Virus record (IMG/VR): IMGVR_UViG_3300020215_000115
Location: 1-30,026 of that record
Length of the DNA: 30,026 nt
Direction: 5' to 3' (one strand)
From: a virus
The notes below the pieces were generated by a model, which was not told the origin of the DNA, did not search any database, and saw only the letters and a program-made list of their open reading frames with translations. Shown piece by piece: positions 3,354 to 28,614 of this stretch (positions within the stretch are counted from its first letter, which is position 1; every line of letters starts with the position of its first letter). Made by a program: the position numbers and the translations under genes.

Positions 3354-3580
3354 GCCGCATCCTTAGGAGGCTCACCGTCTTCGCCGATCGCGGGCTTTTT
3401 CACGATCTTGGCTAAGAAGTTGTAAACGCGCTTAAAGAACCCGTCAGGCTGTTCGCCAGGGATTTTTCGGGCGATCTTGTAACCAATGAGAATAGCTCCA
3501 GCCAAAGCAGCTAAAAACATCGCTCCAAGCTGCAAAATCTCCTGATAATTCGCGATCAGGTTAACGATAAATTCCTTCAT
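3350..3580 (-). CDS. Single-span membrane protein, holin candidate
   Basis: The 76-residue product has one clear transmembrane helix (about residues 17-35, LGAMFLAALAGAILIGY) followed by a basic segment and a Pro/Lys/Glu-rich tail. It lies between two other small lysis-cassette genes and overlaps the upstream gene by ATGA. A single hydrophobic helix with a charged C-terminus in this setting suggests a holin or antiholin that times endolysin release. No specific holin family was recognised. Confidence 0.55.
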   Translation of the reverse strand: MKEFIVNLIANYQEILQLGAMFLAALAGAILIGYKIARKIPGEQPDGFFKRVYNFLAKIVKKPAIGEDGEPPKDAA

Positions 3581-3747
3581 ATTTGGGCCTCCAGTTTAGT
3601 TAAACGTCTGTCGTGCGATTCAACGCGTTCGATAAAAGTAGCCATAGCGATATGCAGGTCATGAACGCCCTTAACGAGATAGATGAGCGCTGCGGTGATC
3701 ATGGGAGCGCAAACACCTGCTATGATTTCTAATGCGAGCGTGTTCAT
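3577..3747 (-). CDS. 56-residue membrane protein, XhlA-like holin/antiholin candidate
   Basis: This short frame starts with ATG at 3747, which overlaps the upstream stop as ATGA, and ends with TGA overlapping the next ATG. The product has a hydrophobic N-terminal helix (LEIIAGVCAPMITAALIYLV) and an amphipathic C-terminal helix with the heptad-like sequence FIERVESHDRRLTKLE. Phage hemolysin/XhlA-type proteins have the same two parts in the opposite order, so the similarity is of layout only. The tight coupling on both sides argues that it is real. Confidence 0.6.
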   Translation of the reverse strand: MNTLALEIIAGVCAPMITAALIYLVKGVHDLHIAMATFIERVESHDRRLTKLEAQI

Positions 3748-9581: not shown

Positions 9582-10238
9582 TTACCAAATAGTCCCACCG
9601 CTGTAATCGGCAACTTCTCTCACTTCACGCGAGAGATCCTGACGACGCTCGTTCGCGTCGCTCACCATGTCTTTTTCGTAGGATCGAAGCTTTTTTTCTA
9701 AGAGTTCAGGAACACGGCCGTCCTTAATGAAGCCGTCTTCGCAAGCAAGGAGTGCGATCAGCTCGTGATAGCTTTCCGGAACGTCGGGCATGTCGGTATC
9801 GAGCGACATGTCACCGACTAGGTAGGAATAGCTCAGTCGAAGAGACAGAGCGGAATCAGGATAGGGATAAAGAACAATGCGGTTCTTCTTGATCGTGTAG
9901 GTTGATGGAGTGCCGCTTCCTGTGCCCACGAGATCTTTCTGATTCAGCGTGATTGGCGTGAGAGAGGAAATAGACTCATTCGGAGCCGTACCCGAAATGA
10001 CCAGCTCGACCCGATGAATTTTTTTTATGTTCGAAGGTAAGACGTATTCATTTTGGTTAACTACGAGAGTCGTGCAGACATTCTTGACGTAGTAATTCTG
10101 GCCAGCCGCGATCAGCCGCTTTTGAACTTCTTTATGTGCGTTATTGATCCAAACGGTGACTTGGGCTTCGGTGAAATACCCGAACTCTAGGTCATCAAGC
10201 CAGCTAGCTACGAGATCTTTGAGCTGTCGGAACGTCAC
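9582..10238 (-). CDS. Head-tail adaptor (tail tubular protein A-like / gp4-type)
   Basis: The 218-residue product begins with helices (FRQLKDLVASWLDD, then AQVTVWINNAHKEVQKRL), has a beta-rich middle (YVLPSNIKKIHRVEL, NRIVLYPYPD) and ends with helices (SYHELIALLACEDG). This is the layout of phage adaptor proteins that bind the portal ring and receive the nozzle. The start is GTG at 10238, with AAAGG upstream. The start codon sits in the 3' arm of a perfect 7-base inverted repeat, which may gate translation. It is followed directly by the nozzle gene. Confidence 0.75.
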   Translation of the reverse strand: MTFRQLKDLVASWLDDLEFGYFTEAQVTVWINNAHKEVQKRLIAAGQNYYVKNVCTTLVVNQNEYVLPSNIKKIHRVELVISGTAPNESISSLTPITLNQKDLVGTGSGTPSTYTIKKNRIVLYPYPDSALSLRLSYSYLVGDMSLDTDMPDVPESYHELIALLACEDGFIKDGRVPELLEKKLRSYEKDMVSDANERRQDLSREVREVADYSGGTIW

Positions 10239-10264
10239 GAGATACCTTTCGGGGTCTTCTCGTG
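10236..10264 (-). promoter_or_regulatory. Hairpin enclosing the adaptor gene's ribosome site and start
   Basis: CACGAGA (10236-10242) and TCTCGTG (10258-10264) are perfect 7-base complements. In the transcript the 15-base loop carries the AAAGG ribosome binding site and the 3' arm includes the GTG start codon. Folding would hide the start codon but leave the binding site exposed, so it may limit translation or couple it to upstream ribosomes. Confidence 0.45.
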
Positions 10265-10318: not shown

Positions 10319-10525
10319 TTAGTCCGTACAAGTCTCCGATGAGTCTGCGTCCAGACAGTTTTCCCAGGTAGTCGTGATCGGAATTTCATCAGAAACCCAG
10401 TGTTCATCGCAGGGGAAGAGAAACCCAAAGGTTAGGAGCCCAATTCCGGCGGTCGCGAAATTGAGCCCCAAGAACCCCTGGGTTTCGAGATTGGTCCCAG
10501 AAATCACAACATCAATAGGATTCAA
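10319..10525 (-). CDS. Small hypothetical protein, one hydrophobic segment
   Basis: The 68-residue product starts at TTG 10525, which overlaps the glycosyltransferase stop as TTGA, and runs to a TAA at 10319-10321. It has a hydrophobic Gly/Phe/Leu stretch (about residues 16-37) and an acidic C-terminus with three Cys. No family is recognised. The coupling and open frame support a real gene, but the TTG start and lack of an obvious role keep confidence moderate. The 80 bases between it and the adaptor gene hold the hairpin at 10236-10264 and nothing else I can identify. Confidence 0.45.
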   Translation of the reverse strand: MNPIDVVISGTNLETQGFLGLNFATAGIGLLTFGFLFPCDEHWVSDEIPITTTWENCLDADSSETCTD

Positions 10526-12714
10526 GCGGCACCTTTCTGGTTATGAAGGATTTGCGGGAGGTCTTCTAGCCACTGACGGGCCACTTGCTCCCAAGTCCAC
10601 GAGTTGGCATCCCAAAAGACGCGCTTATAGCGTTCTTCGCTCATCGCGGTCAGAGTCTCATTTACATAAACCGCATAATCCATCTCCGTTATGCAGTCAG
10701 AATCGACTAGCGACGCCATTCCGGCTTTCGCCACTGGCCCCAAGGTATCGACGCACCCTCCGATTGCCCTCGTGATCTGGTACACACCGCAACATGCCAT
10801 TTCAAGAGCGGTGATCTTGGAGGTTTCTATGAAATCGCTGGGCTGAACGCAGTAGGCAGAGCTTTTCATAAGCCTCATAAGCGCGTCCTGCTGCATGGCT
10901 CCTTCGTAAATGACCCAATCCTTTCGCTCTTCCATCATTCCCTTGAGCTTATCGTGCAGGGCCTGGTGTCCCCACTTCGGAAGATGCTCAATCCCGTAAG
11001 CCACATGAAGCTTTACGTCGGGGAATTTCTCTCTGACTCGGTCAAGAACGCGCATTGCACGGTCTAACCCACGATCCGGAGAAGAGGAGAACACGAATCG
11101 GTTGGGATCTTTCTCCCACGGCCCGTCATTAAACCGTTCGGGCTTAAGTCCATTCCGGGTTACATAGATCTTGTGCTCTGGAACCCCTTGAGTGCCCATC
11201 ATGAAATTCTTATGAAACGGGGTAAGACAAAGAACTTTGTCATAGTTATCGGTCGCCTCCACGCCCTGCGTTTGAAGGTCATGCGACCAAACAACGGTTT
11301 TAGCGTCGGTGAGCTTATTGGAATGTCTCCAAGCGACGTGCAAATAGGGTTTATGCTTAGAGAAGTAATCAACCACCTGGTCGGCTTTTAGGTACTCGAC
11401 CCCATCGAAGATCCCCTCTTTCTCGCGCGGGGAAAAGACCTTCACTTTCCTGCCTGAAATCTTATGGAGCCAGTAGGCCATTTCAATCAAAGCAGTCTCT
11501 GATCCACCCATTGCCTTTGATTTGGCGATCTCTGGATCAAATTCGTAAGCCGTCACTGGAGGAGTGGTAAAAACAATGTCTTCGCAGGGCTGGGCAAAGA
11601 GATAACCCTTAGTCGTGGTTTTAATACGATCCAGCTCCGTGATCAGCGTTCTATTCTCCGTATCCGGAAGGATGGAAAGGCTTTCAGCCGCCTCTTTCCT
11701 GGCGCGGTCGATATCCCCTAAGTGCGCATAAACCCTAGCTAGCTGATTCCGAGGGTAAACCGTGTAGGACGCCTCATGAGAGAAAATCGGCGAAAGTTGG
11801 CCCTTATTCAGAAGGCAGCCCTTAGCCGCATTATAATGAGGGACGGAATCGGCGAGTCTTCCCATCTTCAGGAACGTATCCCCCAGGATGCAATGGAACT
11901 CAGCCCGATTAGGTGCCAGCATCGCGCCCATATGCGCGAACTCAAGAACCTTCTCAAACTTGGTTGTCGTCATGTACGCGTAGCAAAGATATTGAATCGC
12001 TAAAATCCGGTCATGAAGCTCTAATGCCGGATCAGCTACTGCTGAAAGAAGAACAGGAATCGTGTCCTCTGTCTTTCCTGCCTCAAATAGCTCCTTCCCG
12101 TAATAGTACCGCATACGAGCGTCGAGCGGCCCTTCAGTCATCTTCTTTTCGAAGATCGAAAGATTTCTAGAACGATCTTTCTTCAGATCCTCTTCAGTCC
12201 GCTTATGACGAACAGCCCATGTGTTCACAACTTGAGCCTTGACCTCTTGATCGGGAAGAACTGGGATCACACCCTCATGGATGAAATATCTCCACTGCAT
12301 CCCTCGGGATACTTTGAAAACGCGCTCGCGTGCGAAGGTGCAGATTGCATTTCCATTTGCGTCAGAAGCGTAATGGTAGGGTGCAACCCAATAGTCAGCC
12401 ACCTTCATGACGTGATCTCGGAAGTGAATGAACGCTTCCTTATTTTCAAGCACGTCGTCGCCATCCATCCAAAAGACGAAATCGGTTGTGACCGGTTTGA
12501 AGCTTGCGTTCCTGGCTGCTGCAAAGTCATCGCACCATTCAAAGTGGTGAACCTTCGCGCCGTAACTTTCTGCAATTTTCACCGTGTCATCGGTTGAGCC
12601 CGTGTCGGTGATATGGATTTCATCAAAGACGCCTTGAATCGATTCAAACAACCGCGGAAGGTTTTCCGCCTCGTTTTTCACGATCATAGCTAGAGACAGA
12701 GTGGGTCTATTCAA
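10522..12714 (-). CDS. Bifunctional glycosyltransferase: GT2 domain - TPR - GT-B (GT4-like) domain
   Basis: The 730-residue product has three parts. Residues 1-220 form a GT-A (family 2) domain with the SLAMIVKNEAENLPR opening, the ITDTGSTDDT strand and D84-G-D86-D87 for the metal-nucleotide site. Residues about 220-370 contain TPR-like helical repeats. Residues about 400-720 form a GT-B domain with NGLKPERF, FVFSSSPDRGLD and an E630-x7-E638 pair typical of GT4 donor binding. It should transfer two sugars, or extend one glycan, onto a cytoplasmic or virion acceptor. The start is TTG at 12714, directly after a copy of the repeated leader element. Lying among tail genes, it may decorate virion proteins; acceptor and sugars are unknown. 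Confidence 0.85.
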   Translation of the reverse strand: MNRPTLSLAMIVKNEAENLPRLFESIQGVFDEIHITDTGSTDDTVKIAESYGAKVHHFEWCDDFAAARNASFKPVTTDFVFWMDGDDVLENKEAFIHFRDHVMKVADYWVAPYHYASDANGNAICTFARERVFKVSRGMQWRYFIHEGVIPVLPDQEVKAQVVNTWAVRHKRTEEDLKKDRSRNLSIFEKKMTEGPLDARMRYYYGKELFEAGKTEDTIPVLLSAVADPALELHDRILAIQYLCYAYMTTTKFEKVLEFAHMGAMLAPNRAEFHCILGDTFLKMGRLADSVPHYNAAKGCLLNKGQLSPIFSHEASYTVYPRNQLARVYAHLGDIDRARKEAAESLSILPDTENRTLITELDRIKTTTKGYLFAQPCEDIVFTTPPVTAYEFDPEIAKSKAMGGSETALIEMAYWLHKISGRKVKVFSPREKEGIFDGVEYLKADQVVDYFSKHKPYLHVAWRHSNKLTDAKTVVWSHDLQTQGVEATDNYDKVLCLTPFHKNFMMGTQGVPEHKIYVTRNGLKPERFNDGPWEKDPNRFVFSSSPDRGLDRAMRVLDRVREKFPDVKLHVAYGIEHLPKWGHQALHDKLKGMMEERKDWVIYEGAMQQDALMRLMKSSAYCVQPSDFIETSKITALEMACCGVYQITRAIGGCVDTLGPVAKAGMASLVDSDCITEMDYAVYVNETLTAMSEERYKRVFWDANSWTWEQVARQWLEDLPQILHNQKGAA

Positions 12715-12715
12715 G

Positions 12716-12746
12716 CCTAGAGTCGTTTTCTCAGGGGACTTCTAGG
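12716..12746 (-). repeat. Leader element copy A (before the glycosyltransferase gene)
   Basis: On the minus strand this copy contains CCTAGAAGTCCCCTGAGA and ends with CTCTAGG two bases before the TTG start. CCTAGA (12716-12721) and TCTAGG (12741-12746) are perfect complements, giving a 6-base stem. Copies B (19038-19067) and C (21430-21469) share the 12-base core GAAGTCCCCTGA. It may be a phage-specific promoter or a translation-control hairpin. Confidence 0.7.
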
Positions 12747-12759
12747 TTAAACTACCTTT

Positions 12760-13236
12760 TCAAGTCTTCGTTGCAGAGCTTGTATTGTTCGCTAAATCCT
12801 TTTCGGCAATGAGCGTTGACGATCCTCTTGAATAGACCTGCCACACGCCGGTTGCCTTCGTATAGGTCGCATTTCCTTCCTGGAATTCCTGGTTTCTTTT
12901 GAGATAGCCGAACACCGTTGAAGGATCAATAGAGGTTGAGCCGAAACTATCGGTCGAGAAGCCTAGTTTTTCGTCAACTGCCTGAATCGGGTCAAGCGCG
13001 TCGCAAATGTACCGAACCGATGAAGCGAGCGCCGCCCCACCGTCGAGCTTAAACACGATAGGCAGCGTTGGGCTGTACTGCATCTGGTAAAGTCCGCTTC
13101 CAGCCGGTGTTTCTGTGATCCCTGGGGCCGTAAGAGCGGTCACGCCAAAGGCTGAAAAGATCACAAGCGTAGGGCTCAATCCCGTGTAGTCAGACGGGTC
13201 ACCTGAACCAAATTTGAAGTAATAAGTCTTAGCCAT
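12760..13236 (-). CDS. Beta-rich virion protein, unknown
   Basis: The 158-residue product starts MAKTYYFKFGSGDPSDYTGL and is composed of short strands with many Gly, Ser and Thr; the C-terminus is Ser/Thr-rich. An upper-fibre or baseplate-like role is plausible because it sits with other appendage genes between the head genes and the glycosyltransferase. The ATG at 13236 overlaps the upstream stop by 8 bases (CATGGCTAAG) and has GGGG 7 bases before it; a TTG at 13242 is the alternative. No family is recognised with certainty. Confidence 0.6.
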   Translation of the reverse strand: MAKTYYFKFGSGDPSDYTGLSPTLVIFSAFGVTALTAPGITETPAGSGLYQMQYSPTLPIVFKLDGGAALASSVRYICDALDPIQAVDEKLGFSTDSFGSTSIDPSTVFGYLKRNQEFQEGNATYTKATGVWQVYSRGSSTLIAEKDLANNTSSATKT

Positions 13237-13579
13237 GGTCAATCCCCAAGTGTTCTAAAACGGCTGAAAGAACGTCTTTCACCTTCTCAACTGAATTAGC
13301 GTCCTTAAGCTTTTTCATCTTATCCATGCGAGCTTTCACTTTGTCGGCTTCGCTCACTTCCTTAGCCTTCACGAGATCATGAGCGGCTTTCTTATCGTGA
13401 TCAAGAACCAGCACACCGCCTTGACGCTTCCAGCCTCCCACTTCGTTCTTTTCTACTGGCAACGTCCCGTGAATTCGGTCGTCCCAATCGACTCGGCTCG
13501 GATCGTAGAAGTCCCCACCGGGTCCGACCTCTATTACCTCTTGAAGTCCGCTCGGATGAGTAACGAGTAATTTAGCCAT
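13229..13579 (-). CDS. Small charged protein, possible fibre accessory or chaperone
   Basis: The 116-residue product has a short beta N-terminus (LLVTHPSGLQEVIEVGPG), a middle with Trp residues (RVDWDD, GGWKRQGG) and a very charged Lys/Asp/Val-rich C-terminal helix that could form a coiled coil. It begins at an ATG overlapping the previous stop as TAATG, with GGAG upstream. Its position after a large appendage gene fits an accessory or assembly protein. The function is not recognised. Confidence 0.55.
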   Translation of the reverse strand: MAKLLVTHPSGLQEVIEVGPGGDFYDPSRVDWDDRIHGTLPVEKNEVGGWKRQGGVLVLDHDKKAAHDLVKAKEVSEADKVKARMDKMKKLKDANSVEKVKDVLSAVLEHLGIDHG

Positions 13580-15978
13580 TAGGGTAACTCCATAAGTAGC
13601 GTGACTTTCAAGAAATACCGGGTTTCATTCGTAACGGCGGGAGGAGAATTCGAAAGCATTCTCACCTGATCGCCAGGGTTTAAAACCTTCATTCCTCCGA
13701 AGCTTCCAAAGATTGAACCCGTTCCTGCGGCAATGCTCGATTGAATATGGCCTATCCCCCCTCCTTGCTCTGAATTTGGGCCTACGGCACTCTTAGAGTT
13801 CACAGTGAGCTGGGCGTTTAAGCTGTTATTTGCCGCCGAGCCACCTAAGATCGCATACATTCCACGCTTCACCGCTGTAACAATAATTCCAGTGGCATCC
13901 TGATTGTTAAAGTTATGTTGAATAAACTTACCGTTCCCCACGTCCTTGAACTTGACGGCGAACTTCACTCCGTTCGTATCGGCGGAACCGGCACCGTTAG
14001 CGCCCCAAAACCAGACTTCATGCTCGGCCTGATCGCCATTCAGTAACGTCGGATACTTCTTATAGGGATCGTCGAGGTTCAAAAGCGGCTTGATCTCATC
14101 CTTAGATGCAACGTAATCAATGGCCTGAATGACGCAACTTCCGCCCGGATTGTATTGGATCGTGTGGAATCCTTCTGATGCTACCGAATGGAGAATATTA
14201 AACGTGCAACCTACTCCAGCCCCGTCAATGGCGAGAGTTCCGCCGTTGACTGTTCCAATGATTCCCACGTCTTTCCCGTAGTAACGAAGGGTCACCGCGC
14301 TACCACTTGAGCTTGAGTACTTCACCCCACCCGCGTTGAAGCTTTCCACTTCACGCGTCCATGTACCTTTAAGATAGAGCTGATCCGCGTAAACACGCCG
14401 ATGAGTCCCTAGCGCACAGATCGTGGCGTTGATCGCTCCATTCGGAGTGTAGCTGTGGTTAGTCGTTAGGGCGGCTAGCTGGCCAAAACTAATGCCCTTA
14501 TCCCAATTCCATTGGTAGAGATTGATCTTAGCAATGCCCAGAGTCGCGCCTAAAGACGCGCCAGGCCCAATAGCCAGGTTGTACCAACTCTGACCAGCGT
14601 CAGTGAGAATGGTCTTACGTAAATATCCGGTTGCTCCTTCGCTCATGGACCAGGCCTCTAGTCCGTTGATGTAGAAAGTGGCGGAAAGTACACCCGCACC
14701 CGCGAACTCCACGTCAGCCGCAGCGAAATAGCCTTGGATGTTGATCCTCCCCGACGCTCCATTGAAACGAAGTGCGTTCGGGAAGTTCATCGATAGTGCG
14801 GTAATCCCAATGTTCTCACCCCATAAGCAATATCGCCCATAAGGATCAAGAACTGTGGCGCTTACACCCGCTATCTTTCCAAAATCGAGCGTAGCGACGC
14901 GTACTAGTAAGCTTGCGTTGATAGCAAAGGTGGGTCCGGTAAAAAAGTTCCTGTAAATCGCGTTTGAAATTCCAAACGGAAGGGTTGGGCTAACTGTTAA
15001 CGTGTCAGTTGAAACTGATCGGACGATTCCAAAGTAATGACTCGATCCATTCGGGACTACTACGCCAGAGCCCGCAGGAAACGAAGCCCCGTGTCCAGCC
15101 GATAGAGCAAGCAAGTTCGTCCCACTTGAGCCTTGAGCGATACTTACCACAGTACTCGCCGAAAGATGGGAGGCTGCGTAGTCACCACTTGAATTTTTAT
15201 AATAGACGCTCGTTCCGCCAAGGGAGGAGCCAAATGTTCCCAAAGGTAAGCTTGCACCTGCGGTGGTTACGATCTTAGATTTATTGACGTAACTCGTTCC
15301 GGGTGGCAGCTCGACGTTGGCTCCAGAGTTCTCGTAATAGACAATTACGCCAGAGATCGTGAGCGTATTGTCCTGAAGAGCGATCATCCGGTAATCGTGA
15401 AGGTCATTCGTCTCGTTTGACGTGCTGTGAAAGTAAGGAATCACCTTAGCTGGAGCACCAATAAAGTTATCCGCTCCAGTAGCCAGAGAAGCAAAATCAA
15501 TGGTGGTTGTATTTGTACCGTCAGTTGCTAGCTGAGCGGTCGCTGTGGCCGAGGCGTTCGGGTAAATCAGCCACGCTAACCGACGAATTCGACCAGAGAT
15601 TCCAAATCCCCCGGTGATCGTGGTAATGGATGCGGTTGGTTGTCCGCCCTTCCCACTCATCGCTACAGCGCCGAACGCATACCCAGACACGCCTGGAAAA
15701 TCTTCATGAAAGATCATCCGATAAGTGGCTTGATTGTTGATCCATTTGGATCTGTCCTCAATCAAAACCATGTCCTTCAGATAGAGCGTCTTTCTGGAAT
15801 ATTTCGGGTTATCGTCGTTAGCGAATAGATCGCCAAGCGGATTAACCGAGGCGTTCGAAGTCAGACCCGTATTGTTGCTAGCCGGAAGGGTTAAGTCTTC
15901 GAATACGTCTTTTACGTAATCGGTCCCTTCTGTACCAGCACCCGCCGCGTTTCCAAAAAACGTGATTGATCCGCTCAT
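13579..15978 (-). CDS. Large beta-rich structural protein (tail appendage or fibre-like)
   Basis: The 799-residue product is dominated by short Gly/Ser/Asn/Thr-rich beta strands, with repeated motifs such as SGVIVYYENSG and SVYYKNSSG, suggestive of a beta-helix or fibre. The N-terminus (SITFFGNAAGAGTEGTDYV) may attach it to the virion. No catalytic motif for depolymerase activity is obvious. The ATG at 15978 has no purine-rich ribosome site; the 13 bases before it follow a strong nested hairpin (15992-16047). It lies between a decoration-like head gene and small tail genes. A head fibre is the main alternative. Confidence 0.6.
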   Translation of the reverse strand: MSGSITFFGNAAGAGTEGTDYVKDVFEDLTLPASNNTGLTSNASVNPLGDLFANDDNPKYSRKTLYLKDMVLIEDRSKWINNQATYRMIFHEDFPGVSGYAFGAVAMSGKGGQPTASITTITGGFGISGRIRRLAWLIYPNASATATAQLATDGTNTTTIDFASLATGADNFIGAPAKVIPYFHSTSNETNDLHDYRMIALQDNTLTISGVIVYYENSGANVELPPGTSYVNKSKIVTTAGASLPLGTFGSSLGGTSVYYKNSSGDYAASHLSASTVVSIAQGSSGTNLLALSAGHGASFPAGSGVVVPNGSSHYFGIVRSVSTDTLTVSPTLPFGISNAIYRNFFTGPTFAINASLLVRVATLDFGKIAGVSATVLDPYGRYCLWGENIGITALSMNFPNALRFNGASGRINIQGYFAAADVEFAGAGVLSATFYINGLEAWSMSEGATGYLRKTILTDAGQSWYNLAIGPGASLGATLGIAKINLYQWNWDKGISFGQLAALTTNHSYTPNGAINATICALGTHRRVYADQLYLKGTWTREVESFNAGGVKYSSSSGSAVTLRYYGKDVGIIGTVNGGTLAIDGAGVGCTFNILHSVASEGFHTIQYNPGGSCVIQAIDYVASKDEIKPLLNLDDPYKKYPTLLNGDQAEHEVWFWGANGAGSADTNGVKFAVKFKDVGNGKFIQHNFNNQDATGIIVTAVKRGMYAILGGSAANNSLNAQLTVNSKSAVGPNSEQGGGIGHIQSSIAAGTGSIFGSFGGMKVLNPGDQVRMLSNSPPAVTNETRYFLKVTLLMELP

Positions 15979-15991
15979 AATGAAGAGTAGA

Positions 15992-16047
15992 CGGGCGGGA
16001 AAGCTCTAGCCGCTATCACCTGGCTAGACCCATGACTCCCCCGCCCG
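15992..16047. terminator. Nested double hairpin, terminator or attenuator candidate
   Basis: An outer perfect 8-base stem CGGGCGGG/CCCGCCCG (15992-15999 and 16040-16047) encloses an inner perfect 7-base stem TCTAGCC/GGCTAGA (16005-16011 and 16022-16028). The structure fills the gap between the highly expressed head genes and the 799-residue protein gene. In the transcription direction it is followed by a mixed T/C stretch (TCTACTCTTCATT), not a clean T-run, so it may attenuate rather than fully stop transcription, or stabilise the upstream mRNA end. Confidence 0.55.
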
Positions 16048-16059
16048 AATCCTTTTTAG

Positions 16060-16494
16060 TTATCCAGCCGTGTAAGTGACGATATCCTGAGTCTTCTGAA
16101 CGACAACGCTCACTACAGGGCACACAGCCGCAGTGTTCGCAGTGCCGAGACGAATCTGGATGCAATCACCCGCCATGACGTTCAAAAGGGTGCTACCGGC
16201 AGCGACCATCGAAAGCCCGAGCGTGCCCGAAAGCCCGCGAACAGGAATGATGAACGAAGCAGCAAGACCCGAGATCACCGTGGCACCTGCGCCAGCGATG
16301 AACCGGCTGATCTCAAGCGAAGAGGTCGGAGCGCCGGAAGCGCCCTGAGCCGCAACGAAAGCAGCCGAAAGAACACCAGGAAACGGGATCGGAGCCGAAA
16401 GCAGAGTTGCACCCGTTGCAACCACGCCTTGAGCTACGAGCTGGACCACTTCTTTTTGCTGAGAAGCGTCCATCGAACGGTTATTGATAGGCAT
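16060..16494 (-). CDS. Head decoration-like protein candidate
   Basis: The 144-residue product has a polar N-terminus, then is rich in Ala, Gly, Val and Ser with strand-forming segments (GDCIQIRLGTANTAAVCPVV). Its location two genes downstream of the major capsid gene and its small beta-rich makeup fit a capsid cement protein, but no family is recognised. A strong AGGAG site lies 9-10 bases before the ATG. Expression is probably high, as for capsid genes. Strong hydrophobicity makes a minor membrane-associated virion protein an alternative. Confidence 0.5.
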   Translation of the reverse strand: MPINNRSMDASQQKEVVQLVAQGVVATGATLLSAPIPFPGVLSAAFVAAQGASGAPTSSLEISRFIAGAGATVISGLAASFIIPVRGLSGTLGLSMVAAGSTLLNVMAGDCIQIRLGTANTAAVCPVVSVVVQKTQDIVTYTAG

Positions 16495-16496
16495 TT

Positions 16497-16955
16497 TTAT
16501 TTTCTCCTATGATCGGACATTTTCATGCCCGATGTATTGATATCGTTAGTCACCTTGGCGAATTCGGAGCGCATATCTAGGGCCTTCGCCCTAAAGTCAT
16601 TTCTCCGAGCGCGTTTCTTTTCTTCCTCGACTCGATCCCTAGCGGCTTGCCTTTCAGCCCTACGCTCACTTAGAGATCGATGATCTTGATGAGAATCCAT
16701 AAGTGAGAGCTTGAACCAAATTGGGTCAATCCCCCGCTCCACTGGCTTTCCATTCATTGACCAGTCGTCAGTTAGAGAAAAAACGTACTGAGGATTTGAA
16801 AGAACCGGGTCGGGCTCATCCTGAAAGTAGTCGGATGCATCAACTGTGGAGCCTTCGCGAAGAATATGAATCACTCCATCTTTCTCCCGATAGGCGTACA
16901 GCCGCCTGTCATAACGGCGAACTACTTCTGTTAGTCGCTCAACCCGGCCTCTCAT
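16497..16955 (-). CDS. Charged hypothetical protein next to the capsid gene
   Basis: The 152-residue product has an N-terminal half with strands and Trp/Tyr residues (YDRRLYAYREKDGVIHIL) and a C-terminal half of strongly charged helix rich in Arg and Glu (about residues 85-130), likely coiled coil. It starts 13 bases after the capsid stop with a GGGGAT site, and ends two bases before the next gene. The position is typical for small head-completion or accessory proteins in this gene order. No function is recognised. Confidence 0.55.
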   Translation of the reverse strand: MRGRVERLTEVVRRYDRRLYAYREKDGVIHILREGSTVDASDYFQDEPDPVLSNPQYVFSLTDDWSMNGKPVERGIDPIWFKLSLMDSHQDHRSLSERRAERQAARDRVEEEKKRARRNDFRAKALDMRSEFAKVTNDINTSGMKMSDHRRK

Positions 16956-16967
16956 ATCCCCGCTTCC

Positions 16968-18188
16968 TTACGGTGAAATGTAGTTACGAAGAACCGCGTT
17001 AGCGTTCGGCTTTTCGCAGAAAATGTTAGCGAACAAGCGCAGACGAATTTCGAAAGCGTCAGCGTCGCTCTGAGCGATCATCTGAGATCCCGTTTCGTCA
17101 GCCCATTCGAGTTCCGAAAGAACGTATTTCTTCCAGGTTTTCGGATCGAGCATGAACACGCGTTGAGGACAATCCTTATCCGGAACCCAGGGGAGCCCCG
17201 CGTATTCCAGATAGTTCTCATCCTTATTCGAGAACGTGCCGTCACCCTTCACCTTGCCCATGTACCGCTTGTCGGAGATCAAGAGCTTTTCATAGAAACG
17301 CTCCGAATCGTAATCCGAGAAGATCGCACCGATCTTGCCGCCGCCTTTAGAACGGGCCAGGTTGTGCGCTTGCTTGAGCAAGTTCAGGTTCATCTGAGCG
17401 CCGTTAGCGTTCACGACGTTGCCCTGAAATACCGGGTAGGTCGCACGGTTGATGCCGTAAATGGCGCTTGTTCCGCCATCCAAGGTATAAAGCAGACCTT
17501 GAATTTCCTTATCCAAGCTTCCCGAACGGATCACGATATCACCCGAAGCCGCCGTCACGTTCTGATCAAGCGTCAGGGTTGCAGTCGTGGTGCCCGAGAT
17601 CGCCGAGATCGTCACGCCACTAGCTTTTGCTACGCCAGCGGAGGTGTAGATATCGATGACCATTCCCACGTCCAGGAACTTCGATCCGTCTTCAGCCGAC
17701 TCACGGCCAGTGACGGTGATCACGTTCGTAGCAACGGCATTAGCCGAAAGAACGGCGAGATCGCATGAGCCATCCCAGAAAAGCTGACGGTTCACGTCGT
17801 TCTTGAGATCCTCAAGACCGCGCTCCATTTCAAATTCCACAATCGAAGCAAACCCGGCCTTGTCGCCCTGGGAAGCCTTGATCATTGGGGCGGTGACACC
17901 GAAACGCAGATAGTTAAACTTGTAACCAATCGTAGCGTTCTGAGTCGTCTGAGTTCCGATAGCGGGAAGATTGCCGCCATCGGAGGTAGCGCCGATGCCG
18001 GGGTTCCTACGAACCGCGACCGAACGAACAACCTGGAGACCCGCAGCTTTTTCTTTGCCCTTTTCCATCTCGCGATAAAGCGGAATGGAGTCATTGAACT
18101 GAGCGACGACTCCGCCGCTATACCAGTTCTTGAGAAGGGCCAAGGTCGCTGCAAGGCTCGTGCTTGCAAATGCGTTAGGCATATTCAT
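16968..18188 (-). CDS. Major capsid protein (HK97-like fold)
   Basis: The 406-residue product has the features of phage major capsid proteins: a helical N-terminal arm (NAFASTSLAATLALLKNWY), an E-loop-like region with NPGIGATSDGGNLPAIGTQ, a long spine-like helix (about residues 125-150, FEMERGLEDLKNDVNRQLFW), and a beta-rich insert (about 175-235, VTISAISGTTTATLTLD). The C-terminal domain ends with a strand (IRLRLFANIFCEKPNA). It follows the scaffold-like gene and uses a GGAT site before ATG. It should assemble into the icosahedral shell on the portal and scaffold. Gene order and composition make this a firm call. Confidence 0.88.
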   Translation of the reverse strand: MNMPNAFASTSLAATLALLKNWYSGGVVAQFNDSIPLYREMEKGKEKAAGLQVVRSVAVRRNPGIGATSDGGNLPAIGTQTTQNATIGYKFNYLRFGVTAPMIKASQGDKAGFASIVEFEMERGLEDLKNDVNRQLFWDGSCDLAVLSANAVATNVITVTGRESAEDGSKFLDVGMVIDIYTSAGVAKASGVTISAISGTTTATLTLDQNVTAASGDIVIRSGSLDKEIQGLLYTLDGGTSAIYGINRATYPVFQGNVVNANGAQMNLNLLKQAHNLARSKGGGKIGAIFSDYDSERFYEKLLISDKRYMGKVKGDGTFSNKDENYLEYAGLPWVPDKDCPQRVFMLDPKTWKKYVLSELEWADETGSQMIAQSDADAFEIRLRLFANIFCEKPNANAVLRNYISP

Positions 18189-19036
18189 TATCCTTCAAGT
18201 TCTTGCAGAGCAAAGGCAGTTGCTTCCTTGATCGTGCGAGCTTTCCTCGGAGCTTGTCCGGGAATCCCGCCGCCAGGAGCTACGTCCTTCACCTGCTGGT
18301 TAGTTTGTTTTTGCTTTTTGACTTTCTCTGCGAAGAACTGCTCAGCGAGCTTCTGATTCTCATCGTGTACGGACTTGTAAGCGCGGTCCCAATCAGCCTC
18401 AGTAAGAACTGCGTCCGGATCATCTTTCCGAATCTCGCTCAAGCGATGCTCAAGAATATTCATCGCCAAGGCTTCGTATCGGCCTTTGACGCTGGGGTAT
18501 TTCTGAGAAAACTTTTCACAATTCGAATCGACTTCCGCCTTCGCTGCCTTAGCGGTCTGATCGTTGTAATACTTCTCCACGCGCTCCAGTCGCTCGGCCA
18601 CTTGAGGGTCAAGAGCTGGCTTTGCCTGGTTCTCGGCTTGAGGTTTGGCGGTTTGAGTGTCGGGAAGGATATGCGAGAGGTAGTCGTGAAACTCCTTCGG
18701 ATAGACCTTCTTGAACTCAGCCGCCAACGCGGGATTACGCTTCACATTGGCCAGGTCGTAACGAAGGTTGGCGTAATACTTACGCTCCTCCGCGAGTTTC
18801 TGGGTTTTGCGCGTGTAATCCTCTTGACGTAGAATGGCGTCGCGAATTTCTTTCGCAGTCCATTCTTTCTCTTGAAGCTTTAGCTTTCGATTTTCATCGA
18901 AGGAATCGAGATCAAGGAGGTCACTCGCTTGATCCGGTTGCTCCGGAGCTGCTTCACTTGAAACTAAATCTTGTGTGGGTTCAGCGGTACCAGTACTGGC
19001 AACATCGCCTAGAGTGGGATTTTCATTTTCGAACAA
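18188..19036 (-). CDS. Scaffolding-like protein
   Basis: The 282-residue product has an acidic, disordered N-terminus (residues 1-60, rich in Asp, Glu and Pro), a long helical, probably coiled-coil middle (60-240) and a basic Gly/Pro-containing C-terminus that could contact the capsid lattice. This is the usual makeup of phage scaffolding proteins and it sits immediately before the major capsid gene, whose start overlaps its stop by one base. The start is TTG at 19036, directly after copy B of the leader element; GGA lies 7 bases upstream of the TTG. No protease motif is visible. Confidence 0.75.
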   Translation of the reverse strand: MFENENPTLGDVASTGTAEPTQDLVSSEAAPEQPDQASDLLDLDSFDENRKLKLQEKEWTAKEIRDAILRQEDYTRKTQKLAEERKYYANLRYDLANVKRNPALAAEFKKVYPKEFHDYLSHILPDTQTAKPQAENQAKPALDPQVAERLERVEKYYNDQTAKAAKAEVDSNCEKFSQKYPSVKGRYEALAMNILEHRLSEIRKDDPDAVLTEADWDRAYKSVHDENQKLAEQFFAEKVKKQKQTNQQVKDVAPGGGIPGQAPRKARTIKEATAFALQELEG

Positions 19037-19037
19037 A

Positions 19038-19067
19038 CCTAGGTCCAGATCTCAGGGGACTTCTAGG
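19038..19067 (-). repeat. Leader element copy B (before the scaffold gene)
   Basis: The minus strand reads CCTAGAAGTCCCCTGAGA, identical over 18 bases to copy A, and ends CCTAGGT before the TTG start. CCTAG and CTAGG make the closing stem (19038-19043 with the complementary arm ending at 19067). An AGATCT palindrome (19047-19052) lies within the loop. An in-frame TGA in the core rules out extension of the scaffold gene upstream. Confidence 0.7.
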
Positions 19068-19078
19068 GCTGTTAAAGA

Positions 19079-19390
19079 CTACTTGCGAGACTTCATACGA
19101 GCTAGCGCATCTTGCTTAGCACGCTCGCCAAGAGACTTAGGCTTTCCTGTCTCCAATCGCTGCTTATCAAACTCAGATACGTCAGCCATCATTTCGTCAT
19201 CAAGCGCTGCGGCCTCATCCAGTTCCGGTGCCTTATCTTCAAGTGGCTTATCTCCCATCATAGCCGGTTCTTCAGGCTGCGCAAGAGAGGCGTCCACGCC
19301 TTCGCCGCCTTCTTTTGGCGTGATCGTGATTTCAAGCGTGATCGCCTGACCTTTACGCCCTTTGATTGCGTCCATCATTGAATCATTCAT
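19079..19390 (-). CDS. Acidic hypothetical protein between portal and scaffold
   Basis: The 103-residue product is acidic in the middle (PELDEAAALDDEMMADVSEFD) with a basic C-terminal tail (RAKQDALARMKSRK). The ATG overlaps the portal stop as ATGA. Small acidic proteins in this location can be scaffold accessory or head-completion factors, but no family is recognised. Methionine content is high. The stop is followed by leader element B. Confidence 0.6.
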   Translation of the reverse strand: MNDSMMDAIKGRKGQAITLEITITPKEGGEGVDASLAQPEEPAMMGDKPLEDKAPELDEAAALDDEMMADVSEFDKQRLETGKPKSLGERAKQDALARMKSRK

Positions 19391-21429
19391 ACATTTCCTA
19401 ACGGTTGTGGTTGGTTGGGAACTAATTCTTCAGAAGGTGCGTCAAGCGGTGAGCTTCCGACTTCACCTAAAGCTGCTACTTCATCTTGAGCCGCCATGAC
19501 GGGCTCTAACTCTTCAGCAAGTGCGGCTTGCTGACCTTCGGGTGACTTGGCGATCAGCTCTTGAAGGCAAGCTTCCATGACTTCAAGAAGAACGCCCTTT
19601 TTCTCAGGGTCAAGTGAGTCGTATTTGTCCCCGAGACGATAGGCATTCAATTCTTGCAACCAAAGAGCGTGGTTATCGAATTCCACCATTTCAATCGGTT
19701 GGCCTTCCTCGATTGCTTTGATCACTTTCTTCGTTTGGGCCATCGTCAGCGCGTAGTCGCGCCAAATTCCATTGGTATCGCCAAATTCAATCAGTGAAAG
19801 AACTTTCTCCTTCACCTTGGGATCAGCCGGATCGCCGAGTAAGCCCATATTAAACGCGTTGAGGATTTCTTGGCGCTTCAGAGTCTTCGATCCGGGTAAA
19901 GTCGATCCTCGGATCACGTAAGCGTCCGTATTTCCCCTTAGCATCTCGCCGGAAAACTCCCTAACCGTGTAAGCGAGATCAGGACCGGCGATCTTGAGCT
20001 TTCTTTTTAGCGTATAGCCACGCTCTACTGCTTTCAGGATGAGAGATCCGATTCTCGCCCATGCGTGCTCGTGCTGTTCAGTCATAACACCGATCCGCGT
20101 GTCATCTTGCTCAGTCAAAAGCTGCATCCCAATGGCGGGAATGCTTGCGCTCGGAATCGTGCCGCGTGAAACTTCCGAGATCCCAGAAATATCGTTAAAT
20201 ACTTTATCTAGTCGTTCTTCCTCTTGAAAAACCCACTGAGGAAGAGATGGAACCTGCACCGCCGAAGGTCTACCGCTATCAATCGCATTAGGAACAACGT
20301 CAAATTCGATGACTTCGCTTTCACCGTTGTGCAAAGTCTCTTCGCCGAGATTCGCGCCACGCGGAACGGCGTACTTTCCAGCGACGAACTTCCGAATCCA
20401 TGCGGCTTTTCTTCGCATGAGTTCGTTATATTGGTCTTGGATTGGCCTTAAATGCGTGATCACGGCCTCGGGGTAGTACTTTCCACCTACAGGAATGTCG
20501 TCAAAGCGTGCGAAAGGGATTTCACCTAGCGGGAGCGGCTTATCGCAAAGAAGAATCCCATTAGCAGCCACGATCATGCGGCCTTCCGGGTGCTCTTTTG
20601 AGGGCGCTTCATACTTAGTCAGCTCAATAGCGCAGTTTTTCATCTGCTCTTGCATTCCGCCTTGAGACTGATTGCGAGCGATAAGGCTATTGACCCGACC
20701 TTCGTACATAGCTGAGAGCAGCCACGCGTCCTCTTCCTTTATGAGATGCCCCTTCTCTGGGTAATGAAGCCTGAAATAATCCAATGGCCTGACCTTGGCC
20801 TCGATGATCCAGGTTCTTAGGGCTTCCTCGAAACTTTTAGCTTGGGGATTGGGAAATATCTCGAAGGGCGAAACGACATTTACCGCCACGTCGCCCTCGA
20901 ACTCAGCTCCGCCGCCCATGTCAGGCATAAGCTCGCCTAAGCTCACATCCCAGGACACTTTCCCGTAAGCGTGACCGGCTTGCTGTACCCACATGTAGAG
21001 CGGAATGCGTTTTTCATTCAAATGCTGGCGATCCCAGATCGCGGCAAGCACTTGCGCACCAAGGCGTGCGGCCTCTTTATCTTCGTTTCCATTAGACTCG
21101 GGCCGAACATCGTATTTCGGCGGGTTCTTGCAGAGACGCGCAAGACGATTTTGGATTGTCGGTAGGATCTTATTGACGTGAACGCGGTTTCGTTTGATCG
21201 ACGTTCCGGCCCGGTCTATCGATTGGAACGTGCGGGAGTTCGCATTAAAGTAAATCCCATCCATTCCACACAAATAGGCAATGTTCGTAAACCAGTTGCT
21301 TTCGTTGGCAACCCGGTTGGCAGACGCGCGTGACTCCTCTACCTTCTTTCGAACGTGAGAAGCTATTTCCTCTTCGGATTTTTCGGATTGCTCAGAAGGT
21401 GAAAACGCCTTCTTTAGTTTTTCAAGCAA
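19387..21429 (-). CDS. Portal protein
   Basis: The 680-residue product has the portal layout: an N-terminal helical region, RNRVHVNKILPTIQNRLARL (about residues 79-98), KISWD-like core strands, a stem and clip region, and a long helical C-terminus (residues 560-640). The segment PIQDQYNELMRRKAAWIRK (about 328-346) with following YAVPRGA is typical of P22-type portals that form the dodecameric DNA-entry ring. The length matches that class (about 700). The start is TTG at 21429, right after leader element C, with AAGG 8 bases upstream. It lies downstream of the TerL nuclease gene, the usual terL-portal order. Confidence 0.88.
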   Translation of the reverse strand: MLEKLKKAFSPSEQSEKSEEEIASHVRKKVEESRASANRVANESNWFTNIAYLCGMDGIYFNANSRTFQSIDRAGTSIKRNRVHVNKILPTIQNRLARLCKNPPKYDVRPESNGNEDKEAARLGAQVLAAIWDRQHLNEKRIPLYMWVQQAGHAYGKVSWDVSLGELMPDMGGGAEFEGDVAVNVVSPFEIFPNPQAKSFEEALRTWIIEAKVRPLDYFRLHYPEKGHLIKEEDAWLLSAMYEGRVNSLIARNQSQGGMQEQMKNCAIELTKYEAPSKEHPEGRMIVAANGILLCDKPLPLGEIPFARFDDIPVGGKYYPEAVITHLRPIQDQYNELMRRKAAWIRKFVAGKYAVPRGANLGEETLHNGESEVIEFDVVPNAIDSGRPSAVQVPSLPQWVFQEEERLDKVFNDISGISEVSRGTIPSASIPAIGMQLLTEQDDTRIGVMTEQHEHAWARIGSLILKAVERGYTLKRKLKIAGPDLAYTVREFSGEMLRGNTDAYVIRGSTLPGSKTLKRQEILNAFNMGLLGDPADPKVKEKVLSLIEFGDTNGIWRDYALTMAQTKKVIKAIEEGQPIEMVEFDNHALWLQELNAYRLGDKYDSLDPEKKGVLLEVMEACLQELIAKSPEGQQAALAEELEPVMAAQDEVAALGEVGSSPLDAPSEELVPNQPQPLGNV

Positions 21430-21469
21430 CCTAAGCGCCTTGAGTCTTCAGGGGACTTCAGGAGTTAGG
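21430..21469 (-). repeat. Leader element copy C (before the portal gene)
   Basis: The minus strand contains CCTGAAGTCCCCTGAAGA, sharing the 12-base core GAAGTCCCCTGA with copies A and B. The outer stem here is CCTAA/TTAGG (21465-21469 and 21430-21434), so the stem sequence differs from the CCTAG/CTAGG of the other copies but still pairs. The TTG start follows TTAGG directly. The remaining gap to 21509 holds nothing else I can identify. Confidence 0.65.
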
Positions 21470-21509
21470 ATAAGAAGTCGAAGCGAAATCTATTCTTAGT
21501 GTACCACGG

Positions 21510-21719
21510 CTAAAACACGCTCGCCAAGTCCTCGTCTGGAGAAGTATCAGGCCTGATCTGAGGCTCGGTTTTTGTCTTTGGATGAGCTATCGTTGCGTAC
21601 TCGGCGAAATTCCGACTCATGAGTTTATTGATGAGCTTTTGAACCGTCACATAATGCATGGCCTCTCTCGCCAAAATGAACGCAAGCAAGCCATAGACTA
21701 AAAGTTCATACTCCATCAT
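21510..21719 (-). CDS. Small single-span membrane protein
   Basis: The 69-residue product has an N-terminal hydrophobic helix (about residues 3-18, YELLVYGLLAFILA), a helical middle and a hydrophilic tail with Pro, Thr and Asp. It starts at an ATG overlapping the upstream stop as ATGA. Its role is not recognised. Confidence 0.55.
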   Translation of the reverse strand: MMEYELLVYGLLAFILAREAMHYVTVQKLINKLMSRNFAEYATIAHPKTKTEPQIRPDTSPDEDLASVF

Positions 21720-21871
21720 TTCGGTTTCACCTTCGATAACGCGTTCTTCGCCTGCCTCACTACATTAGCGAAGATCACGGGGTACTGAGCCGAAAGCATT
21801 TTAAGCTCCGAATCATCCCCCCGCGAGATCGCGTCCAAGATCAGGGATCTTGCTTGCCAGTAGTCGCTCAC
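21716..21871 (-). CDS. 51-residue hypothetical protein
   Basis: The short frame starts at GTG 21871, which overlaps the upstream stop as GTGA, and ends in TGA overlapping the next ATG. The product (VSDYWQARSLILDAISRG at the start, basic ...SKVKPK at the end) is predicted helical and hydrophilic. Coupling at both ends supports it as real; the function is unknown. Confidence 0.55.
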   Translation of the reverse strand: MSDYWQARSLILDAISRGDDSELKMLSAQYPVIFANVVRQAKNALSKVKPK

Positions 21872-22227
21872 CCAATCCCCTCCACTTTTCCCTCGGTGTC
21901 GCCGTGGAGCTTGTAATGCAAGGGCGTCGCCTGTTCAGCTTCGATCTTCTCTTTCATCCCAATGGGGTAGACCTTAATCCCGCCGTAAATAAAGAACTCA
22001 TTGGGCTTTCCAGTAGATGGATTCGTTCCTAGTCCACGCAGATTGTAATGCGCAATGATCTCGGGCGTGGCTTCGACGTACTCCATCCCGTTAGCTTGAG
22101 CGTGAACGATCAGGTTCATAAACTCGCTCACTGTCATTTTTACGTCATTCACCTGGGAGTCAATCATTCCAGGATCAACGTCTTTTTTCGGGCGACCGGG
22201 TTTACGAACTTTTTGAGTGGTTTCCAT
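21868..22227 (-). CDS. Hypothetical protein with AT-hook-like N-terminus
   Basis: The 119-residue product begins with a basic segment, RKPGRPKKD (residues 8-16), which matches the GRP core of an AT-hook, a short minor-groove DNA-binding motif. The rest is mixed helix and strand (MTVSEFMNLIVHAQANGMEY, FFIYGGIKVYPIGM) with no known fold recognised. Its ATG overlaps the TerL nuclease stop as TAATG, so the two are co-translated. A role beside DNA packaging is conceivable but unproven. Confidence 0.55.
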   Translation of the reverse strand: METTQKVRKPGRPKKDVDPGMIDSQVNDVKMTVSEFMNLIVHAQANGMEYVEATPEIIAHYNLRGLGTNPSTGKPNEFFIYGGIKVYPIGMKEKIEAEQATPLHYKLHGDTEGKVEGIG

Positions 22228-23015
22228 TAGTCATTTTCTCCTTGGTTTTGTCGTTTGGTCATCTGATCAATCACCCAACGCTCCCAATTCTTGTCATGGG
22301 GACTATGGGGTTTGGTCAATACGTCTTTTTTCTTCACTGGATAATGCACAAGCTCTTCTAAGCTAGCTAACGCATCTAAGAGATCGTCATGCATCCCCCT
22401 AGGAAAGCTCGCTAGCTCATCTTCAAGATCCTTCAGTCCTGGGGAAAGTAAGATCCTTCCCCATTCAAACCTTGGGACTAACCCCAAGATCCGAGTTTCC
22501 TTACTGATCGCCACGCGTTTTACGCCTGTGACGGGGATCGTCTTTTGACGCTTACGCATCTCTTCGGAAAGAAGATAGAGAAGCGCCTCTTGATAAGCGA
22601 CGACTTCCACTCCCAACGCTTGCACCTTGAACTGGTCGCAGATCTCAAACATCTTGGAGACGATCTCGGTTGGCGTCATCCGATAGCGATTAGCCACCCG
22701 GACATACCAGCTCCCATCGGTTGAAGCGTCAATCACGATAATTCCCGTGTAATCGTGATGGTCCTTCTGACCAATCGCAGGATCAATAAACGCGAATCGG
22801 TAAGTATCTGAGGGAAGCTGATCGTAATAGCGAATCCATTCCTTCTTAAATCGCTTCTCATCTTCCGGGATCACTTCGTTTTGATACTGGTTAGCAAAGA
22901 GATAAGAACCCATCGAACGACGGGCTTGCGCTAGGAACTCCTCCGTAAGCCTCTCGGGAAAAAGAAGACTCCCGTCATCTCGGATCGCTTTTTCGTAAAC
23001 CACTGACCATTGCAT
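22227..23015 (-). CDS. terL: Terminase large subunit, C-terminal nuclease half (separate gene)
   Basis: The 262-residue product is the RNase H-fold nuclease domain of a terminase large subunit. It opens with the linker/start-of-nuclease pattern DDGSLLFPERLTEEFL and SYLFANQYQNEVIP (about residues 13-50), which in intact TerL follows the ATPase domain. The catalytic acids are all visible: D78 in FAFIDPA, D88, E137 in GVEVV and the HDDLLDA motif (D210, D211, D214). The nuclease should cut concatemeric DNA at initiation and end of packaging. There is no Walker motif; the ATPase half is at 27895-28614. The ATG lies 2 bases after the stop of the Gly-rich protein gene and has no ribosome binding site, so translation is probably coupled. 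Confidence 0.93.
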   Translation of the reverse strand: MQWSVVYEKAIRDDGSLLFPERLTEEFLAQARRSMGSYLFANQYQNEVIPEDEKRFKKEWIRYYDQLPSDTYRFAFIDPAIGQKDHHDYTGIIVIDASTDGSWYVRVANRYRMTPTEIVSKMFEICDQFKVQALGVEVVAYQEALLYLLSEEMRKRQKTIPVTGVKRVAISKETRILGLVPRFEWGRILLSPGLKDLEDELASFPRGMHDDLLDALASLEELVHYPVKKKDVLTKPHSPHDKNWERWVIDQMTKRQNQGEND

Positions 23016-27806: not shown

Positions 27807-27895
27807 TAGTCACCCCCATAGTCGCTCATGATCAAATAGACGATCACCACGGCGGCGAAGAGAAGCATGAGAATCATTCCCTCATCGTGAACCAT
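27803..27895 (-). CDS. 30-residue single-span membrane peptide
   Basis: This tiny frame starts at ATG 27895, overlapping the TAA of the TerL ATPase gene as TAATG, and ends with TGA overlapping the next TTG. The peptide has a hydrophobic run (MILMLLFAAVVIVYLIM, about residues 7-23) long enough to cross a membrane and a Tyr/Asp/Gly tail. The double coupling supports translation. The function is unknown; it begins at the exact point where an intact terL would continue. Confidence 0.45.
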   Translation of the reverse strand: MVHDEGMILMLLFAAVVIVYLIMSDYGGDY

Positions 27896-28614
27896 TAGGC
27901 TGCACCCTTCAGTTCTGGTCCCACTTCGTTTCGGAGAATGTGCCCAATCACATCATCTTCCGCGTAACGTGTTCCGATGATCGCGTAAGTACCGTCCGGC
28001 TCTAAGATTGCAGTGTTCATCTGGTAATGCTGGATCACCTTTTGACGGCCTTCGGGGGTTTCGGAGTTATTGCCCGAGTTCATGTCGTCGCCGATGATGA
28101 TGGAATAGTGCTGGCCTACTTTGACCGTCCCAATGCCACCCGCCGTGATTGATGCCTCTTTGTACGTCTTCGTGCGTTGACCAATCGTGATCTCGCCTTC
28201 GTTCCACACCTTGTCTGTCCGAAAGGGTCCGAAGATCTCAGTCAGCTTAGGGGACTCTAGGTGATACCGAATCTCGCGAAGGAAGTTCTTAGAGTTCGTA
28301 TAGACCTCAGAATCGAGTAGAATTCTTTCATTCGGATTTCGCAGTAACCGCCAGATAGAGTAGGCAACCGTTCCGACAGAGCTTTTGAAAGTCCCTCGGG
28401 GCATGACAATAAGTTTTCGCCTCGTGTCGGATTCAAGCGCCTCGATCATCTTTCCATGCGTGAACCAAGTCATATGCTCGTAACCAAGCAAGTCCTTTGC
28501 GGTCCAGTAGAGTGACTTACGATAACTCTCAGCTAATAATTGCCGCATGGCCTGGATCTGCTGATCCATGTTCAGGCGCTTTAAATCGGATTGAAGCTTC
28601 TTAGGATCAATCAA
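27895..28614 (-). CDS. terL: Terminase large subunit, N-terminal ATPase half (separate gene)
   Basis: The 239-residue product is the packaging-motor ATPase domain. The Walker A motif is MPRGTFKSS (residues 71-79), Walker B is SIIIGDDM (171-178), and the coupling motif AIIGTRYAED is at 211-220. An intact large terminase would continue into a linker and nuclease domain, but here the frame stops at residue 239 (LRNEVGPELKGAA). The nuclease domain is a separate gene at 22227-23015. Together the halves give 501 residues, close to a normal TerL. The start is TTG at 28614, with GGGGATCAGG upstream, overlapping the small Cys-rich gene by 8 bases. Confidence 0.93.
   Translation of the reverse strand: MIDPKKLQSDLKRLNMDQQIQAMRQLLAESYRKSLYWTAKDLLGYEHMTWFTHGKMIEALESDTRRKLIVMPRGTFKSSVGTVAYSIWRLLRNPNERILLDSEVYTNSKNFLREIRYHLESPKLTEIFGPFRTDKVWNEGEITIGQRTKTYKEASITAGGIGTVKVGQHYSIIIGDDMNSGNNSETPEGRQKVIQHYQMNTAILEPDGTYAIIGTRYAEDDVIGHILRNEVGPELKGAA

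Follow-up and report, generated by a model that had tools for sequence, protein, structure and literature searches.

Three copies of a repeated element in the late operon of a tailed phage, each found directly ahead of a gene starting with TTG, correspond, on what is a slight balance of probability, to a lineage-specific RNA hairpin, one that would serve as a translational operator for genes with weak start sites. This reading draws on predicted folds, as does the idea that the hairpin restrains translation, which we infer from the sequence and the modeled structure. That a single trans-acting factor is involved, and the direction in which such a factor would act, is speculative.

The window, i.e., the whole stretch of DNA that was analyzed, is a complete IMG/VR virus record of 30,026 nt. 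Profile matches revealed a tailed-phage late operon on its minus strand, with genes encoding a split large terminase, a P22/SU10-like portal, a scaffold-like protein, a major head protein, an SU10-type adaptor and a large glycosyltransferase. The GenBank phages nearest to the window encode portal and capsid proteins that are just 21-30% identical to those considered here, and a DNA search of phage records with the window sequence revealed no relative. Likewise, no relative was found in a capsid single-sequence scan, nor was one encoded in bacterial genome contigs scanned with a portal profile and the patterns used. In IMG/VR, 20 portal relatives sharing 46-62% identity were identified, with none closer being found. 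The large terminase of the window is divided between an ATPase-half gene (27895-28614, minus strand) and a nuclease-half gene (22227-23015, minus strand), with some 4.9 kb of other genes lying between. As two separate phrog_38 matches, with the break mostly near profile position 465, were detected in each of the 10 relatives searched, this fission looks like a feature of the clade and not an assembly error. In those relatives where both halves are found on one stretch, they are 0.4 to 5.6 kb apart. In one relative (L024:4482-6254), the ATPase half contains an intein with a LAGLIDADG endonuclease domain at the Walker A motif (PRGSLK/C...HN/SSLG).

The core of the element, GAAGTCCCCTGA, is found at positions 12731-12742 (copy A), 19052-19063 (copy B) and 21448-21459 (copy C), in all cases on the minus strand, which is the coding strand. 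Its end is 16-18 nt upstream of a TTG start, belonging to the glycosyltransferase gene (A), the scaffold-like gene (B) or the portal gene (C). It is the only 12-mer with at least three copies in the window, and occurs there exactly three times. Copies A and B share CCTAGAAGTCCCCTGAGA at 18 of 18 positions and, when the whole hairpin is considered, are identical in 26 of 31 columns, with the mismatches corresponding to four loop-tip bases and one bulge. The distance from AGG to TTG is 1 nt in A and B and 0 nt in C. As such, re-examination bore out the preliminary description in terms of the location and sequence of the three 12-base cores, the 18-base identity of A and B, and the placement of TTG 0-1 base after AGG. 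Its further statement that the copies occupy three of the few gaps in the operon holds insofar as all three are intergenic, although similar or larger gaps (15978-16060, 21719-21868 and 3580-3744) contain no element. As for the key roles that it assigned to the downstream genes, profiles support those of the portal gene (19387-21429, minus strand; P22/SU10-like) and of the glycosyltransferase gene (10522-12714, minus strand; GT2 domain, TPR and GT1-like), whereas that of the scaffold-like gene (18188-19036, minus strand) is deduced solely from its place between the portal and capsid genes.

Among simulated sequences of 30 kb, approximately 6% contained a 12-mer three times on one strand and 0.5-1% contained an 18-mer twice, such that the repeats taken alone are only moderately rare. 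The case gains its strength once position is considered as well: all three copies share one orientation, are intergenic and contain a stem that ends 0-1 nt before TTG. When the flanks of the three copies were shuffled, a stem abutting the start codon was obtained in 0.4, 2.8 and 3.3% of instances, respectively.

According to structure prediction, element A (12716-12746, minus strand) folds as CCUAGA-A-GUC-[CCCUGAGAAAAC]-GAC-UCUAGG, and element B (19038-19067, minus strand) as CCUAG-AA-GUCC-[CCUGAGAUCU]-GGAC-CUAGG. In element C (21430-21469, minus strand), covariance modeling and folding point to an inner hairpin, CCU-GA-AGUC-[CCCUGAA]-GACU-CA-AGG, held within an outer stem, CCUAA/UUAGG. The inner hairpin (21438-21462; CCT-GAAGTCCCCTGAA-GAC-TCA-AGG in DNA) is homologous to A and B, with the outer stem (CCTAA/TTAGG) being an addition. 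Common to all three are nested stems comprising CCU(AG)/(CU)AGG, a bulge (A in copy A, AA in copy B and a GA/CA internal loop in copy C), GUC/GAC and a loop beginning with CCCUGA. The preliminary description spoke of a stem that changes in sequence yet stays paired; the arms are, however, the same in A and B, save for one extra pair in A, and the sole change is in C, where one pair is compensated (G-C to A-U). Because no relative conserves core or stem, covariation amounts to this one pair. At the same time, the loop measures 12 nt in A, 10 nt in B and 7 nt in C, and the arms keep pairing. When the whole window was searched with a covariance model trained on A and B alone, C ranked next (21.9 bits, E 3.3e-4), with the place after C scoring 10.8 bits (E 1). 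As modeled, C is thus the same kind of element as A and B, differing from them in its shorter loop and additional outer stem. RNAalifold detected no consensus structure in the MAFFT alignment since that alignment does not register the arms. Relative to dinucleotide shuffles, the folding energies are modest, with 7, 21 and 8 of 200 shuffles being equally good for A, B and C, respectively.

The predicted hairpin overlaps the ribosome-binding region in all three copies, as would be expected of an operator, with C being the weaker case. Outer pairs between UUAA (12747-12750) and UUGA (12711-12714) in A, and between ACAG (19069-19072) and UUGU (19033-19036) in B, are predicted to bury the start codon, the unpaired probability of which is 0.04 in A and 0.08 in B in a 100-nt context. 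In C, the inner stem covers the AGG of AAGG, the sole Shine-Dalgarno-like stretch there, found 8 nt upstream of TTG; when more flanking sequence is folded, an alternative fold competes, in which the start codon of C is mostly open. A buried start is, moreover, not unique to the elements, given that structured starts are also found elsewhere in the window (10238, 16955, 7818 and 13236). Two further pairings were noted. Just upstream of C (21448-21475, minus strand), GACUUC can pair with GAAGUC of the core, in competition with the operator hairpin, possibly creating a two-state switch; a shorter GACUU is seen at A and none at B. In addition, GGGGACTTCTA, at 13506-13516 (minus strand) in the early coding part of the gene at 13229-13579, is a perfect 11-nt complement of TAGAAGTCCCC in A and B on the same transcript strand (9 nt for C). 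Such complementarity would arise by chance with an estimated frequency of approximately 6%, and long-range pairing of the two stretches is possible judging from their sequences.

In alignments of the glycosyltransferase gene, TTG is matched by the ATG of relatives (LNRPTLSLAMIVKNE vs. MTRPSISLAMIVKNE, with similar starts being seen in relatives), arguing that this TTG is the real start, while the portal start region, GCTTAGGTTGCTTGA, aligns with GCTTAGAATGCTTGA of relative L006. The first 80 codons of the scaffold-like gene contain no other standard start codon. The Shine-Dalgarno energies of the three TTG genes range from -2.7 to -3.0, with most other genes showing values of -4 to -9. As the relatives mostly start these genes with ATG and have a stronger Shine-Dalgarno site there, the combination of hairpin and TTG is a derived, lineage-specific state. 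Several portal genes of relatives also present weak or odd Shine-Dalgarno sites. The portal genes of L007 and L014 seem to start at ACG and CTG, respectively, where the family has M-G-L-(F/L); these would be unusual weak starts on the portal within the clade.

In the proposed mechanism, late transcription would yield a polycistronic mRNA in which each copy folds directly ahead of a start codon. The fold of A and B would also pair UUG and that of C would tie up AAGG, a potential Shine-Dalgarno sequence. With no strong Shine-Dalgarno sequence left, initiation on the portal, scaffold-like protein and glycosyltransferase genes would be slow. The CCCUGA of the loop and the A/GA bulge are the same in all copies, with the 3' half of the loop drifting, and this constancy suggests a single trans-acting reader. 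Such a factor, either a small RNA or a phage protein, for example a structural protein that acts on its own message, might read all three copies and so adjust these low-copy products together. Complementarity of the element to Escherichia coli 16S and 23S rRNA extends to 6 nt at most.

The preliminary description had offered a promoter or an RNA control element as alternatives. A phage-specific promoter or transcription-factor site, with the core being read as double-stranded DNA and the three key genes being transcribed as leaderless or nearly leaderless mRNAs, is unlikely. The single orientation of the copies, their location directly upstream of genes and their identical core would fit such a site, phage single-subunit polymerases do recognize short specific promoters, and a near-leaderless start would account for the missing Shine-Dalgarno sites. 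Yet conservation is interrupted by the variable loop, with GAC and AGG being kept at changing distances, the inverted repeats pair at variable spacing, unlike a dimer site, and the start codon itself lies within the paired region. Promoters of phage single-subunit RNA polymerases are expected to present a contiguous conserved block of 15-23 bp at the heads of transcription units; here, the 18-bp block of A and B falls within that range and the 12 bp of C fall short of it, with further conserved bases found at variable distance. No sigma-70 promoter (-35/-10 hexamers) was detected at A, B or C, and other operon gaps lack the element. Because loop length changes and the arms stay paired, with the 3' arm ending at the start and the Shine-Dalgarno sites being weak, an RNA element is favored over a double-stranded promoter. 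No support was obtained for the proposal that the elements divide the late operon.

Less likely again is a hairpin serving RNA processing, antitermination or mRNA stability, for which proximity to the start codon would be secondary. Intergenic hairpins in mRNA orientation within a polycistronic late transcript are what such a role would entail, but no intrinsic terminator (GC stem and T run) was detected at any of the copies, the 8-11 pairs of the stems make them short as RNase III targets, and processing would not call for a fixed distance of 0-1 nt to the start. Improbable as well, and if anything more so, is a small dispersed repeat, whether mobile or duplicated through recombination, that settled between genes by chance and has no regulatory role. 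The lineage-specific nature of the element, the near-identity of A and B, and the likeness of B and C that extends past the start codon (TAGG(T)TTGYTYGAAAA) agree with this origin. Against it, all three copies abut a start codon in the same orientation, none is found elsewhere, and the start-codon stretch of C (GCTTAG-TGCTTGA) resembles that of L006 and so looks to have been inherited with the gene. Finally, a chance repeat next to ordinary weak start sites, as the simulated frequency of the 12-mer and the other structured starts of the window would allow, is very improbable when the A/B identity, the leave-one-out recovery of C and the common position are considered jointly.

Evidence bearing on a translational operator was also sought beyond the three copies. 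The preliminary description had proposed looking in relatives for conservation of core and pairing, the lack of which would count against its reading; neither the core nor a significant match to the model was found in any of the 20 portal relatives (46-62% identity), whereas two relatives have start-abutting hairpins of other sequence ahead of the adaptor gene and one has such a hairpin ahead of the portal gene. The relatives did not contain a repeated leader of another sequence of their own common to portal and scaffold genes. An 11-mer shared within L005 was set aside, as on one side it lies in coding sequence, and matches of viral contigs to exact or gapped A/B-type and more general patterns were attributed to chance only (L025; L026 and L027, inside coding sequence). 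A scan of bacterial genome contigs with the A/B pattern yielded nothing. Searches of the whole window with Rfam release 15 covariance models gave nothing at the gathering threshold, and nothing up to E=1 around A and B. Elsewhere, a 16-nt start region, TGGGGATTAGGGAATG, is common to two adjoining genes of L021 (560-832).

In the window, the best place after A-C in the search with the A and B model, at 10.8 bits only, is candidate D (10236-10264, minus strand), predicted to fold as CACGAGA-AG-ACC-[CCGAAA]-GGU-A-UCUCGUG, situated on the GTG (10238) that starts the SU10-type adaptor gene (9582-10238, minus strand; profile match), with 0.7% of shuffles folding as well. Part of its resemblance to the core is inherited, AAGA..CGAAAGG being also present in L046, and D is therefore considered a candidate only, either degenerate or independent. 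In L045 and L046, contigs of L024 and L008, respectively, a near-perfect 12-bp hairpin with a GAAA tetraloop ends exactly at the adaptor ATG (locus position ~1501); six other adaptor relatives show no obvious start-abutting hairpin. In L005, UUGAAG/UUUCAA abuts the portal gene, which likewise starts with TTG (3.5% of shuffles). The adaptor hairpins of the window and of L045/L046, together with that of the L005 portal gene, hint at repeated use of start-abutting hairpins within the clade. A 7-bp stem at the L006 portal start, seemingly homologous to C, was not counted as it folds worse than shuffles, and a candidate hairpin at the terminase TTG (28614) was rejected as its folding is no better than that of shuffles.

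Going beyond the operator reading itself, it can be tentatively proposed that the elements represent a so far undescribed class of multi-copy RNA operator, in which one phage factor would read the CCCUGA-loop hairpin at the portal, scaffold and glycosyltransferase starts, and perhaps at the adaptor via a degenerate copy, so as to fix the amounts of low-copy virion proteins relative to capsid protein at the level of translation and not by promoters. A tailed phage has to obtain hundreds of capsid proteins, but only a few portal rings, from a single late transcript. If the proposal is true, placing the same hairpin at the starts of portal, scaffold and adaptor-side genes would offer a compact means of setting such ratios, with coordination via one factor, and the hairpin might find use as a small part for controlling translation.

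Several known systems invite comparison, and the first two below, together with T4 RegA, offer precedents for how such an element could work. The coat-protein operator of MS2-type RNA phages is a small bulged hairpin at a start codon that represses initiation when bound. The elements likewise are predicted to be small bulged hairpins with a specific loop at a start codon, but the RNA phages contain one operator per genome, whereas here three copies precede three genes of a dsDNA phage. The P22 scaffolding protein is subject to autogenous post-transcriptional control, and the likeness lies in the P22-like portal and in a scaffold gene as target. In control of the T4 gene 38 type, a hairpin between the Shine-Dalgarno sequence and the start brings an upstream Shine-Dalgarno sequence close; the elements similarly place a hairpin directly ahead of the start codon, but no upstream Shine-Dalgarno sequence is found ahead of B or C. 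T4 RegA is one repressor acting at the start sites of some 30 mRNAs, at sites that overlap or lie just 5' of the start codon and that are A+U-rich, without structure and of varying sequence (PMC3014915). Whereas a RegA-type site would be A+U-rich and unstructured and would include AUG, the elements are structured, nearly identical and associated with TTG; what RegA shares with the model proposed here is the principle of one repressor acting at many start sites.
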